DNA from: Candidatus Nitrosotalea okcheonensis
GTDB lineage: Archaea > Thermoproteota > Nitrososphaeria > Nitrososphaerales > Nitrosopumilaceae
NCBI RefSeq assembly: GCF_900177045.1
Contig: NZ_LT841358.1
Span: 1,265,396-1,329,395, forward strand
Length of the DNA stretch: 64,000 nucleotides
Direction: 5' to 3'
Position 1 is the stretch's first letter, and every line of letters starts with the position of its first letter. Shown in pieces: positions 39,161 through 42,735 of the stretch. The position numbers and the translations under genes are program-made. A model generated the notes under the pieces. The model saw only the letters and a program-made list of their open reading frames with translations, was not told the origin of the DNA and ran no database searches.

Positions 39161-40183
39161 TTGAAAATCTGGTTTGACATTCTTACTCCTAAACAGCTGC
39201 TTTTCTTTGCTCCAATGGTAAGTAAATTGAGTAAAAATCACAAAATACTATGTACTTCACGAAATTATCGTGAAGTTGTAGAATTATCCAAGATAAAAAA
39301 TGTGGATCTAAAGTTAGTTGGAAAACATGGTGGCTCTACCAAAGAGGGAAAACTTTACTCAAGCATACAGAGAATGAACCATCTTTTAGAGGAGATAATA
39401 AAGTTCTCACCTGATTTGACCGTTAGTTTCTGTTCGCCTGAAGCTGCAAGAATTTCCTATGGAATAGGAATCAAGCATGTAGCATTTTCAGATTCTCCCC
39501 ATGCAGAAGCTGTAATGAGACTTGCATTACCCTTAGTACAGAAACTACTCATTCCTTGGGTTATACCCAAGAATGAGTTTGTCCGATATGGAATTTCAAA
39601 AAAAGATATCATGCATTACAAAGCCATTGATGCATCTGTAATAGTAAGAGAAAGATCGAGAATTAGAAGAGTGAAGGTTGACAAAACTAAAAAGACAATT
39701 GTGATAAGACCAGAAGAGTCAGAGGCTGCATATATTCTAGGAAAGACTGTGAGTGACAACATAATTTATGAAGCAAGTAAGGAAAACAATCCCTACAATA
39801 TCATAGTCTTGGCAAGGTATGTAATACAAAAGAAGAGACTGGAAGAAAAATTTGGTAAAAAAGTCATCATAATGGATAAAGTTGTAGATGGTAAATCACT
39901 CCTTAGCATTACAGATCTTTTCATTGGTTCAGGAGGTACTATGACTGCAGAAGCTGCATTGATGGGAATTCCAACTATATCATATGATGCAGTACCAAAT
40001 TATATTGAGAAATATCTTGTACGAGTAGGACTTGTAAAAAGAGAAACAAATCCAAAGAAAATTTCATTCTTGATCAAAAAAATGATAAGCGGTGGTGAAA
40101 CAAATAAACAAAGAGCAAAAACTATTCTAGACTCAATGGAGGATCCTTATTTGAAACTAGTTCAAACAATAAAGGAAGTGTAG
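39161..40183 (+). CDS. DUF354 protein, GT-B glycosyltransferase-like
   Basis: A 340-residue DUF354 protein. Begins KIWFDILTPKQLLFFAPM and contains FSDSPHAEAV, VVDGKSLLSITDLFIGSGGTMTAEAALMG-type GT-B nucleotide-sugar site (around 250-280), and PTISYD. These resemble the UDP-GlcNAc 2-epimerase/MurG-like fold. TTG start immediately upstream of the KIWFD motif. A role in archaeal surface glycan synthesis is an inference from fold and neighbourhood (the YVTN surface-protein relic). Confidence 0.85.
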   Translation: MKIWFDILTPKQLLFFAPMVSKLSKNHKILCTSRNYREVVELSKIKNVDLKLVGKHGGSTKEGKLYSSIQRMNHLLEEIIKFSPDLTVSFCSPEAARISYGIGIKHVAFSDSPHAEAVMRLALPLVQKLLIPWVIPKNEFVRYGISKKDIMHYKAIDASVIVRERSRIRRVKVDKTKKTIVIRPEESEAAYILGKTVSDNIIYEASKENNPYNIIVLARYVIQKKRLEEKFGKKVIIMDKVVDGKSLLSITDLFIGSGGTMTAEAALMGIPTISYDAVPNYIEKYLVRVGLVKRETNPKKISFLIKKMISGGETNKQRAKTILDSMEDPYLKLVQTIKEV

Positions 40184-40200: not shown

Positions 40201-41517
40201 TTATGCGTTAACTAATTTTTTGTATAATGTAATGGCAGAATTTTCATCCTTTTCGCCAACAATTACAGCAGAACCACGTTTTAAGAAACTTACAAAGATG
40301 TCATTGGAAGAAATTGACAATCCTAACTCACCTTGATTTTGCACTTTGAAGCCTTTTTCTGATGCAGCACTTGTTATTTTTGGAACATCAATCTCAATCA
40401 TTGTTGTAGGAGTGATAGAAAATGTACGCTTTCCCCTATTGCGTCCACATAACTCTTCAACAATGAGTTCTTGAGAAGGCAATTCCTCATGTTTGCCCGA
40501 ACCACATTCAGAACATTCATCTACTTTGTTGAAAACTGCAGTATTGAAATCAAGATTATCAAGATCAATGTAAAGTAATTTGTTTGCCAAAGTGGGTGCT
40601 CTTCCTATGATGACTTTGACTGCTTCTGCAACCTCAATTCCTCCAACAATAGAAAGTATTGATGGGTGAACGCCTTCAGTACTACATGTAGGCATAGAAT
40701 TTTCATCAAGTGATGGAAATATGCAGTGATAGCATGCGGTTTGATGTGGCAGTATGGTAAATACTTGCCCTGAAACTCCCACTGCTGCCCCTGTCACAAA
40801 TGGAATGTTTTTTTTTATGCAGGCCTTGTTAAGAGAATACCTGGCGTTAACGCTGTCAAGTGCATCAATTACAACGTCACATCCCTCCACTACATCTAGT
40901 GCAGTATAGTCATTTACAGAAACAGGTAATGCTTCAATTATCACATCTGAATTCATTTTTTTGAGCTTTTTTGCAGCAACCTCGACTTTGATCTGACCTA
41001 CATCAGATTCATCAAACATTGTTTGTCTATGTAGATTTGATATTTCTATTACATCCCTATCCACAATTCTTATCGTTCCTATTCCCATGGCAACCAGTCG
41101 AGTCACTATTGGATTACCTAGCCCACCTACCCCAACAACGCATACTTTTGATTTTTTGAGTTTGATCTGACCTTCATAACCAATCTCTTCCAACATTACT
41201 TGTCTTGAATATCTTTCAAGATCCTTACTTGAAAGATCAGAACCACCTGCTACTGCAGGCAAAATGTAAATCTCGTCTCCATCATTTAGCACTGTTTCCA
41301 GACCTCCCGAAAATTTCATGTTTTTTCCGTTTATGTATATATTGATAAGTGATCGGGGAGAACCGTCTGGGTTAAGAACTCGTCTTTTGAATTCATCTCC
41401 TAGTTGTTCTGAAATTTTAATAAATGCTTCAGAGAGAGTGGTTGCTACCAAGTCTATTTTTTTCTCCCCACCACCTTTATTCAGTACAGAAGGAATAGTG
41501 AATTTGATATTAGCCAT
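40201..41517 (-). CDS. Ubiquitin-like sulfur carrier fused to E1-like MoeB/ThiF/UbaA enzyme
   Basis: 438 residues in three parts. Residues 1-92 form a MoaD/SAMP-type beta-grasp domain ending AVAGG (Gly91-Gly92). Residues about 93-340 are an E1-like adenylyltransferase: LERYSRQ, the GVGGLG nucleotide loop (129-134), RDVIEISNLHRQ, the catalytic-cysteine segment PTCSTEG (Cys277) and a zinc site from Cys262/Cys265 and Cys334/Cys337. A C-terminal domain (about 362-438) follows. The Gly-Gly that E1 would activate is internal, so it must be cleaved, act on another carrier, or be inactive. The start codon directly abuts the threonine synthase stop (TAG-ATG). Adenylation is family knowledge; the fusion's mechanism is inference. 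Confidence 0.9.
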   Translation of the reverse strand: MANIKFTIPSVLNKGGGEKKIDLVATTLSEAFIKISEQLGDEFKRRVLNPDGSPRSLINIYINGKNMKFSGGLETVLNDGDEIYILPAVAGGSDLSSKDLERYSRQVMLEEIGYEGQIKLKKSKVCVVGVGGLGNPIVTRLVAMGIGTIRIVDRDVIEISNLHRQTMFDESDVGQIKVEVAAKKLKKMNSDVIIEALPVSVNDYTALDVVEGCDVVIDALDSVNARYSLNKACIKKNIPFVTGAAVGVSGQVFTILPHQTACYHCIFPSLDENSMPTCSTEGVHPSILSIVGGIEVAEAVKVIIGRAPTLANKLLYIDLDNLDFNTAVFNKVDECSECGSGKHEELPSQELIVEELCGRNRGKRTFSITPTTMIEIDVPKITSAASEKGFKVQNQGELGLSISSNDIFVSFLKRGSAVIVGEKDENSAITLYKKLVNA

Positions 41518-42735
41518 CTATCTCACCAATGCCAATATTTTTCCAACATCAGCCTGCATTACTTGAGGTTTTGCCAGTACTTCCATCATGACTTCTGTTG
41601 TCTTTAGTCCATTACCTGTAACATAACATACGGTACAATCGTTCTTGTCAATCTTTCCTTCATCAACCATTTTCTTCAATACTGCTACAGAGACACCGCC
41701 TGCTGGTTCCGTGAATATACCTTCAGTTCGTGCTAGTAATAGTATAGCATCCAAGATTTCTTTATTGTTTGATTCTTCAGCAAAACCATTGTATTGTTGC
41801 AGACGTCGTAATACATACTGACCATCTCCTGGATCACCTATGGCTAAACTTTTTGCAATGGTATCTGGAATTTCCACCGGTGTCACTTCTGAAAGATTTT
41901 TCTTAAAGGCATCAACAATTGGTGCACATCCATGAGGTTGAGCTGCAATCATGTGCATGTTAGAAACTTGATTTATCAATGAGACATTTTCAAGTTCTTC
42001 AAATCCCTTACAAATGGCATTTAACATTGCTCCACTTCCAACGGGTACAATAAGTTGATCTGGTACTTTCCAGTCAAGTTGCTCTGCTACTTCATAAGCT
42101 AGTGTTTTTGAGCCTTCAACATAGTAGGAACGCATGTTTATGTTAACTATCCCTATCCCTTTGCTATCACCTATTTGTGCGGCAATTCTATTTGCATCAT
42201 CATAAGTTCCATCAACTGAAATAAAATTAGCCCCGTAAGAGAGAGCTTGTGTTATTTTTGCATGTTCGATATCACTTGGTGCAAATATGTAACATGGAAA
42301 ATCACCTTTTGCTGCATGAGCTGCTGTAGCTGATGCCAAATTTCCAGTTGATGCACACCCTACAGCAGACAAACCGAATTCTTTTGCTTTTGATACAGCT
42401 ACACCTGCAGGTCTGTCTTTGAAGGAGAAAGTTGGATTCATTGAATCATTTTTTATATAAAGATTATTCAGGCCTAGTGCTTTACCCAGTTTTTCTGCCT
42501 TGATCAATGGAGTCATTCCAGCTCCAATACTTACTATGTTAGATTTTGATTCAATTGGTAAGAGTTCATGATACCTCCAGTAGGTATGTTCACGATTTGA
42601 AAAAGTATTCTTGTTTACGGATGGAAAATCATAGTGTACATCAAGAGGACCAAAACAGTCTTCACAGATATACTTGAATGTAGGAGTATATTCTTTCTTA
42701 CACTCTCTGCACTGTAGAAATTTTATCTTTCCCAA
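41518..42735 (-). CDS. thrC: Threonine synthase family PLP enzyme
   Basis: 405 residues. An N-terminal zinc ribbon (Cys9, Cys12, Cys24, Cys27) precedes a fold II PLP enzyme with the lysine in NPTFSFKDRPAG (Lys106), the phosphate loop CASTGNLAS and VPVGSGAMLN. Threonine synthase converts phosphohomoserine to threonine. Related enzymes use thiocarboxylated carrier proteins as sulfur donor, which is relevant because the next gene encodes such a carrier fused to its E1. TTG start with an A+T-rich TATA-like element about 22-26 nt upstream and a 15-bp palindrome beyond it. Confidence 0.9.
   Translation of the reverse strand: MGKIKFLQCRECKKEYTPTFKYICEDCFGPLDVHYDFPSVNKNTFSNREHTYWRYHELLPIESKSNIVSIGAGMTPLIKAEKLGKALGLNNLYIKNDSMNPTFSFKDRPAGVAVSKAKEFGLSAVGCASTGNLASATAAHAAKGDFPCYIFAPSDIEHAKITQALSYGANFISVDGTYDDANRIAAQIGDSKGIGIVNINMRSYYVEGSKTLAYEVAEQLDWKVPDQLIVPVGSGAMLNAICKGFEELENVSLINQVSNMHMIAAQPHGCAPIVDAFKKNLSEVTPVEIPDTIAKSLAIGDPGDGQYVLRRLQQYNGFAEESNNKEILDAILLLARTEGIFTEPAGGVSVAVLKKMVDEGKIDKNDCTVCYVTGNGLKTTEVMMEVLAKPQVMQADVGKILALVR

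Follow-up and report, generated by a model that had tools for sequence, protein, structure and literature searches.

The 64,000-nucleotide window of Candidatus Nitrosotalea okcheonensis DNA analyzed here encodes a ubiquitin-like (Ubl) sulfur carrier fused to an E1 enzyme. Comparison with related proteins suggests that the fused chain is probably a pro-carrier, from which a JAMM protease would release the carrier by a cut after Gly92; the chain's own E1 half would then thiocarboxylate the carrier, and the enzyme ThrC2 would use it much as CysM uses CysO. The architecture, the strictly kept Gly-Gly, the conserved operon, the intact catalytic residues of E1 and JAMM and the co-distribution are seen in the sequence itself; every step after translation (the cleavage, the protease, the thiocarboxylation, the substrate and product of ThrC2) is a prediction built on them.

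The fusion protein and its domains

The features of the locus are as follows, in positions of the window.

41518..42735, minus strand: ThrC2, a PLP enzyme of the threonine synthase family, encoded at the head of the operon (PRK08197, TIGR00260; conserved neighbour)
40201..41517, minus strand: Ubl-E1-TBP fusion gene (P0001), ATG at 41517, stop at 40201, 438 aa
41242..41517, minus strand: CysO-type beta-grasp sulfur-carrier domain, residues 1-92 (ThiS PF02597; phmmer match to CysO 3dwg_C)
41242..41247, minus strand: Gly91-Gly92 (the same in 99/99 fused orthologues; C-terminus of nine unfused ones), with the predicted cut behind Gly92
41212..41241, minus strand: variable linker, residues 93-102 (SDLSSKDLER; no invariant position; 9-32 aa; pLDDT <50 at 88-110)
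40498..41211, minus strand: MoeB/ThiF-type E1 domain, residues 103-340 (PF00899, E 1.6e-73; invariant residues; Foldseek)
40684..40686, minus strand: Cys278, ThiF-type catalytic-position cysteine (invariant)
40204..40494, minus strand: TBP-like C-terminal domain, residues 342-438, with Cys357 in EELCGR (name taken from PMC2948915)

The original prediction of a Ubl carrier joined in frame to an E1, with Gly91-Gly92 internal and 346 further residues behind it, was confirmed by the 438-aa open reading frame, in which no internal stop was found between 41517 and 40201 on the minus strand, and by Pfam. The ThiS match (residues 35-92, E 1.5e-8, above the cut-off) ends exactly at Gly92, and the ThiF match covers residues 103-334 (E 1.6e-73). 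At the junction, the peptide FSGGLETVLNDGDEIYILPAVAGG runs up to Gly92 and is followed by SDLSSK. The carrier half matched Mycobacterium tuberculosis CysO (3dwg_C) in phmmer with an E value of 2.5e-13 and has the same eight-residue tail, ILPAVAGG. As the Gly-Gly of the encoded product is internal and its C-terminus is not a free Gly-Gly, we classed the carrier as a putative pro-form and not as CysO; a free Gly-Gly end would arise only after the predicted cleavage.

The E1 domain contains a GVGGLG P-loop, R105, R154, K177 and D221, and C262, C265, C335 and C338 are its zinc cysteines. At the catalytic position, the cysteine is Cys278, and not Cys277 as originally proposed. The GxGGxG loop, the ATP-site Arg, Lys and Asp residues, the catalytic-position Cys and both CxxC pairs were invariant in the 99 fused sequences, and the best Foldseek matches of the domain were ThiF and MoeB. 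The domain is of the MoeB/ThiF type and is predicted to adenylate the Ubl C-terminus.

In the AlphaFold model of the whole chain (mean pLDDT 78), the Ubl, E1 and C-terminal domains are separate and the stretch 88-110 falls below 50. This model supports an exposed, flexible junction; at such a pLDDT, it carries no information on docking. The conserved internal Gly-Gly with an accessible linker after it fits a cleaved Ubl fusion of the MoaX type, and cleavage after the second Gly is predicted here. The C-terminal domain was modeled with a pLDDT of 84 and a half-TBP topology, its matches to TBP being weak (Foldseek E about 0.1); Ubl, E1 core and this TBP-like domain in one chain make up the thaumarchaeal Ubl-E1-TBP architecture. 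Within the domain, which has no known sulfurtransferase fold, Cys357 (40447-40449, minus strand) lies in the motif EELCGRxxGKRTFS and was invariant in 99/99 sequences; it could be a sulfur-handling residue. The convergent neighbour of the fusion gene encodes a DUF354 protein of unknown function (39161-40183, plus strand).

The internal Gly-Gly is invariant among fused orthologues

A relative of the fusion protein was present in 164 genomes of a class sample of 200, and 99 distinct fused proteins were compared. Gly91 and Gly92 were invariant in all 99, as were L86, P87, A88 and V89, and no orthologue lacked the Gly-Gly, as the original prediction required. Not one of the ten positions after Gly92 was invariant. 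The linker varied from 9 to 32 residues, mostly being only 9-10 residues long, and the residue directly after Gly92 was Ser in 76 sequences and Ala in 18, with L, E, Q, T and D each occurring once. Since the Ubl domains of the fused orthologues diverge to 47% identity (median 67%), shared ancestry alone does not explain the constraint on the Gly-Gly.

Two other readings were rejected. A frameshift or assembly artefact was ruled out by the 99 distinct fused orthologues, which include complete single-contig genomes. Intein-like self-cleavage was rejected as unlikely, since the residue after Gly92, which would have to be a nucleophile, varies as described above.

Unfused, re-split and independently fused relatives

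In lineages that are not ammonia oxidisers, ThrC2, Ubl and E1 each have a gene of their own, arranged in this order (loci L071, L072, L073, L075, L077, L081, L248, L089 and L100). In these unfused loci, the carrier ended exactly at the Gly-Gly, directly before the stop codon, in 9/9 cases (hereafter GG-stop). By this comparison, the ThrC2-Ubl-E1 operon is older than the fusion.

The fused state has changed repeatedly, at least three changes being needed on the E1 tree. In a Nitrosocaldus-like family, G077 and G079 are fused, and G067 and G098 have been re-split by frameshift. Both re-split carriers keep the Gly-Gly and then continue into unrelated tails of 8 and 15 residues (NSKGYGYG and SRSSINITSSTGVWI, respectively). 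Such tails behind a preserved Gly-Gly would make sense only with trimming after the Gly-Gly, or if these copies were decaying; decay is disfavoured because the Ubl domain is preserved.

A separate fusion was found in a distant clade (G020 and G209; branch support 100/100), with a JAMM gene immediately preceding the fusion. A CysM gene in turn precedes this JAMM gene in G209, as it does in G210, a related genome without the fusion, whose carrier ends in the Gly-Gly plus a 15-residue tail. CysM-JAMM-(Ubl-E1) operons were seen in other Nitrososphaeria at L094 (5006-7776), L095 (3536-6862) and L083 (5539-7421), CysM not being seen adjoining the last of these.

Carriers and E1 enzymes elsewhere in the genome

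We searched the genome of Ca. N. okcheonensis for other carriers; the host is close to Candidatus Nitrosotalea, at 98% identity to a MAG from this genus. A ThiS-profile search to E 10 returned the fusion gene and a Ubl-Cgi121 fusion; beyond these two, the profile found no further ThiS-fold carrier with an E value better than 0.1. The stand-alone carrier that the original prediction had named as a refutation was thus not found in this genome. With this carrier set, the cell would have no Ubl with a free Gly-Gly end in the absence of proteolysis, unless a carrier escaped the profile. Among relatives of the E1 in the genome, only the one E1 was found.

The Ubl-Cgi121 gene (L093:4216-4995, minus strand; genome C1 about 1132200-1133000) places a Ubl ahead of Cgi121, a subunit of KEOPS, so that the Gly-Gly is again internal (VVHGG-RSKR). 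It belongs to a thaumarchaeal fusion already reported in PMC2948915 and is possibly also a JAMM substrate. A search for MoaE in this genome was negative at E values up to 1, the control search being positive in 13/14 genomes, and molybdopterin synthesis was thus ruled out as the use of the carrier here.

Candidate JAMM proteases

The check for a JAMM/MPN protease that the original prediction proposed found two elsewhere in the genome: the Pyrococcus furiosus JAMM1-like JAMM-A at C1:316640 (151 aa) and JAMM-B at C1:752413. Neither adjoins the fusion gene, and in ammonia-oxidising archaea in general the JAMM genes lie apart from it. JAMM-A matched P. furiosus JAMM1 (5ld9) with an E value of 6e-13 and carries the catalytic set, E and HSHP...SxxD; JAMM-B matched AfJAMM. 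We describe JAMM-A only as PfJAMM1-like, since it scored 53 bits against the 130-bit cut-off of the NCBIfam desampylase model, which is named for haloarchaeal enzymes.

A JAMM was present in 186/200 genomes of the class sample, and the fusion was found in none of the 14 genomes without one. Family f7 has carriers of the GG-stop kind (sequence complete in three), and its four genomes all lacked a JAMM, with the same result under looser limits. JAMM typing by BLAST covered only about 30 genomes; in it, 8/10 GG-stop genomes lacked JAMM-A, the exceptions being G150 and G208. By family, a JAMM-A-like protease occurred in 8/8 with residues after the Gly-Gly and in 2/6 with GG-stop (one-sided Fisher p 0.015, uncorrected for kinship), and this association comes from few independent lineages.

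Six fused genomes (G099, G113, G117, G136, G167 and G179) had only weaker JAMM scores. Of these, the two that were typed had JAMM-A (G136) and only JAMM-B (G117); G117, G167 and G179 are MAGs with fragmented assemblies. JAMM-B may be an alternative candidate protease. JAMMs also persist in many genomes that have lost the fusion, and JAMM-A occurs in the GG-stop genomes G150 and G208, so these proteases have other substrates.

ThrC2 departs from the threonine synthase pattern

The stop codon of ThrC2 (41518-41520) abuts the ATG of the fusion gene. ThrC2 exceeded the cut-offs of two NCBIfam models, with 312 bits for PRK08197 and 295 bits for TIGR00260, and the nearest solved structures are threonine synthases. 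The canonical motifs of that enzyme, GSFKDRG, GNTSAS, NSVNPxRxEGQKT and GNAGN, are replaced in the commonest ThrC2 variants, which account for most of the 164 distinct sequences and read NINMR(S/P)(Y/H)YVEGSKT, FSFKDRP, GNLASA and SGAML at the four active-site loops. In threonine synthase, the Arg of NSVNPxRxEGQKT binds the substrate phosphate. Because the canonical active-site motifs are replaced, we did not assign ThrC2 as a threonine synthase; it may be a neofunctionalised partner of the carrier.

A second ThrC (C1:463134) keeps NSVNPxRxEGQKT and is found in nearly all ammonia oxidisers, including those without the fusion and ThrC2. The GG-stop lineages G165, G170, G186 and G195 also carry such a second, canonical ThrC. 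Where the fusion was lost, ThrC2 was lost with it and the canonical ThrC stayed; as the two genes adjoin, this joint loss could be a single deletion. Many near-complete reduced genomes (e.g., G031, G068, G071 and G083) are without ThrC2 and the fusion and keep two JAMM matches and the canonical ThrC, and the ThrC2-fusion system is therefore dispensable.

Five further PALP-family enzymes are encoded in the genome (C1:417201, 463134, 680552, 373333 and 644785). The CysM-like enzyme at C1:680552 was ruled out as an obligate partner of the carrier, since it is missing from the complete fused genomes G046, G066, G088 and G132 and present in fusion-less genomes. Our search of the literature on ThrC2 in thaumarchaea found none.

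Comparison with known systems

The fusion was catalogued in 2010 as Ubl-E1-TBP in Thaumarchaeota (PMC2948915) and reported in 2024 as MoaD-MoeB, cluster 356.1, in 61/98 Thaumarchaeota (PMC11237513); both describe the same protein family and architecture as here. In their accessible text, the fusion is only listed, with nothing on whether the Gly-Gly is conserved, on an operon with ThrC2, on ancestral unfused forms or on a correlation with proteases, and the phrase threonine synthase is absent from PMC2948915. The searchable literature yielded no account of the ThrC2-Ubl-E1 operon, of its ancestors with GG-stop carriers, of re-split forms with tails or of the co-distribution with JAMM-A.

Release of fused Ubls by JAMM/JAB proteases was proposed in 2006 (PMC1779556). 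The precedent invoked by the original prediction, JAMM cleavage of MoaD-MoaE-type fusions, is documented for HvJAMM1, which cuts SAMP1-MoaE exactly after the last Gly and on which the cleavage in vivo depends (PMC4443979). The scheme proposed here is similar in that a JAMM would cut exactly after the Gly-Gly of an N-terminal Ubl and thereby activate the protein; unlike the present fusion, SAMP1-MoaE was engineered in Haloferax, with MoaE as the partner. M. tuberculosis MoaX, a fused MoaD-MoaE, is cleaved at Gly82-Ser83 and is inactive otherwise (PMC4326299). It shares the internal Gly-Gly followed by Ser and needs cleavage for function, whereas its partner domain is MoaE and not E1.

Closest to the carrier itself is CysO of M. 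tuberculosis, which is thiocarboxylated by MoeZ and used by CysM with O-phosphoserine, the adduct being hydrolysed by Mec+ (PMC3227635). Both systems have a CysO-type carrier with the identical eight-residue tail, and the scheme proposed here likewise includes E1 activation, a PLP enzyme and a JAMM. In contrast to CysO, the carrier studied here is fused to its E1, which ends in a TBP-like domain and not in a rhodanese. The PLP partner in the operon is a ThrC paralogue outside the CysM family, a CysM-like enzyme being encoded elsewhere, and the operon contains no JAMM, which is found in the operon only in the separate clade (L083, L094 and L095).

PMC5764234 cites Krishnamoorthy and Begley (2011) for the HcyS-HcyF-HcyD-MetY system of Wolinella. 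There, a metalloprotease reportedly trims the residue after the Gly-Gly, whereupon the carrier is thiocarboxylated and serves a PLP enzyme. The same three elements recur in the proposed scheme: trimming of the residues after the Gly-Gly, thiocarboxylation and use by a PLP enzyme. HcyS differs in its one-residue tail, its separate E1 and its use of MetY instead of a ThrC paralogue. The fusion protein itself was already known, and the system is a variation on sulfur-carrier systems of the CysO/HcyS kind.

Alternative explanations

One alternative to a pro-carrier would be a chain that is never cut, with the Ubl serving as a fixed docking or regulatory domain in the E1 active site and the E1 acting on another carrier in trans. 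A tethered substrate mimic is sterically plausible, and the linker of mostly only 9-10 residues would suit it, yet the genome shows no free carrier, both glycines are invariant while the sequence after them is free to change, the two re-split relatives keep the Gly-Gly and the unfused orthologues end at GG-stop. The docking-only option of the original prediction is disfavoured by these data, and we consider it improbable. Nearly as doubtful is the notion that the fusion serves only for equal dose, with a general or unrelated protease, or an internal start of the E1, in place of a dedicated JAMM step. Mycobacterial MoaX is indeed cleaved by a protease that its authors had not identified. Here, however, the stretch of P0001 from Gly92 to the conserved helix of the E1 contains no start codon, an internal start would leave the Gly-Gly end unfreed, this very bond is the one that a JAMM-type protease cleaves in fused SAMP1, and the distribution of JAMM-A fits a dedicated JAMM step.

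The two remaining alternatives concern ThrC2 and are unlikely to a similar degree, though each carries some weight. If the chain is cut after Gly92, the carrier might serve tRNA thiolation or protein conjugation, like SAMPs or Urm1, and not amino-acid synthesis by ThrC2: archaeal SAMPs and Urm1 do both jobs in the literature, a desampylase-like JAMM is present, and the absence of MoaE excludes molybdopterin use in this genome. Against such a role stand the CysO-like character of the carrier, the ThrC2-Ubl-E1 order conserved from the unfused lineages on, and the dispensability of the system, the fusion and ThrC2 being missing from many near-complete reduced genomes. ThrC2 might instead be an ordinary threonine synthase to which the adjoining carrier-E1 gene has no functional relation, as its TIGR00260 score of 295 bits and the threonine synthases nearest to it among solved structures would suggest. 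This is countered by the second ThrC with the canonical motif in nearly all ammonia oxidisers, even where ThrC2 is gone, by the NINMR(S/P)(Y/H)YVEGSKT of the commonest ThrC2 variants at the canonical motif, by the GG-stop lineages that keep a canonical ThrC beside ThrC2, and by a ThrC2-Ubl-E1 order older than the fusion.

Proposed mechanism and significance

According to the pro-carrier model, the ThrC2-(Ubl-E1) operon would yield Ubl-E1 as one zymogen-like chain. A JAMM/MPN+ metalloprotease, most likely JAMM-A, would cut after Gly92 in the flexible linker, releasing a CysO-type carrier of 92 residues that ends in Gly-Gly and leaving an E1 that begins near Ser93. With ATP, the E1 would adenylate Gly92, leading to the thiocarboxylate. 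ThrC2 would then take the carrier-bound sulfur to form cysteine or homocysteine, the role that CysM plays for CysO, and the same JAMM may, like Mec+, also detach the product from the carrier. Neither the upstream ThrC2 gene nor the CysO identity of the carrier was part of the original prediction. Its reading of a pro-carrier cut after the Gly-Gly is well supported, if indirectly, by the invariant Gly-Gly, the GG-stop forms, the tails, the lack of a free carrier in the search of this genome and the PfJAMM1-like protease; its description of a self-contained carrier/E1 as a new wiring was too strong, the fusion having been reported in PMC2948915 and PMC11237513.

A protein that had previously only been listed thus becomes part of a testable sulfur-transfer system, with a defined predicted cut site and a named candidate protease. 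Its relatives amount to natural experiments on one carrier, which is found with a GG-stop end, with a tail after the Gly-Gly or inside a fusion, and its PLP partner ThrC2 has visibly departed from the threonine synthase pattern. More tentatively, the full scheme may hold: cysteine or homocysteine would be made through a protein thiocarboxylate, with the threonine-synthase-derived ThrC2 in the place of CysM or MetY, the chain would be inactive until cut by a JAMM, and its maturation would supply carrier and activator in a fixed 1:1 ratio. If so, a sulfur amino acid would be formed in ammonia-oxidising archaea by a protein-thiocarboxylate route, and the fusion would illustrate a way of holding carrier and E1 at one-to-one and gating them by proteolysis.
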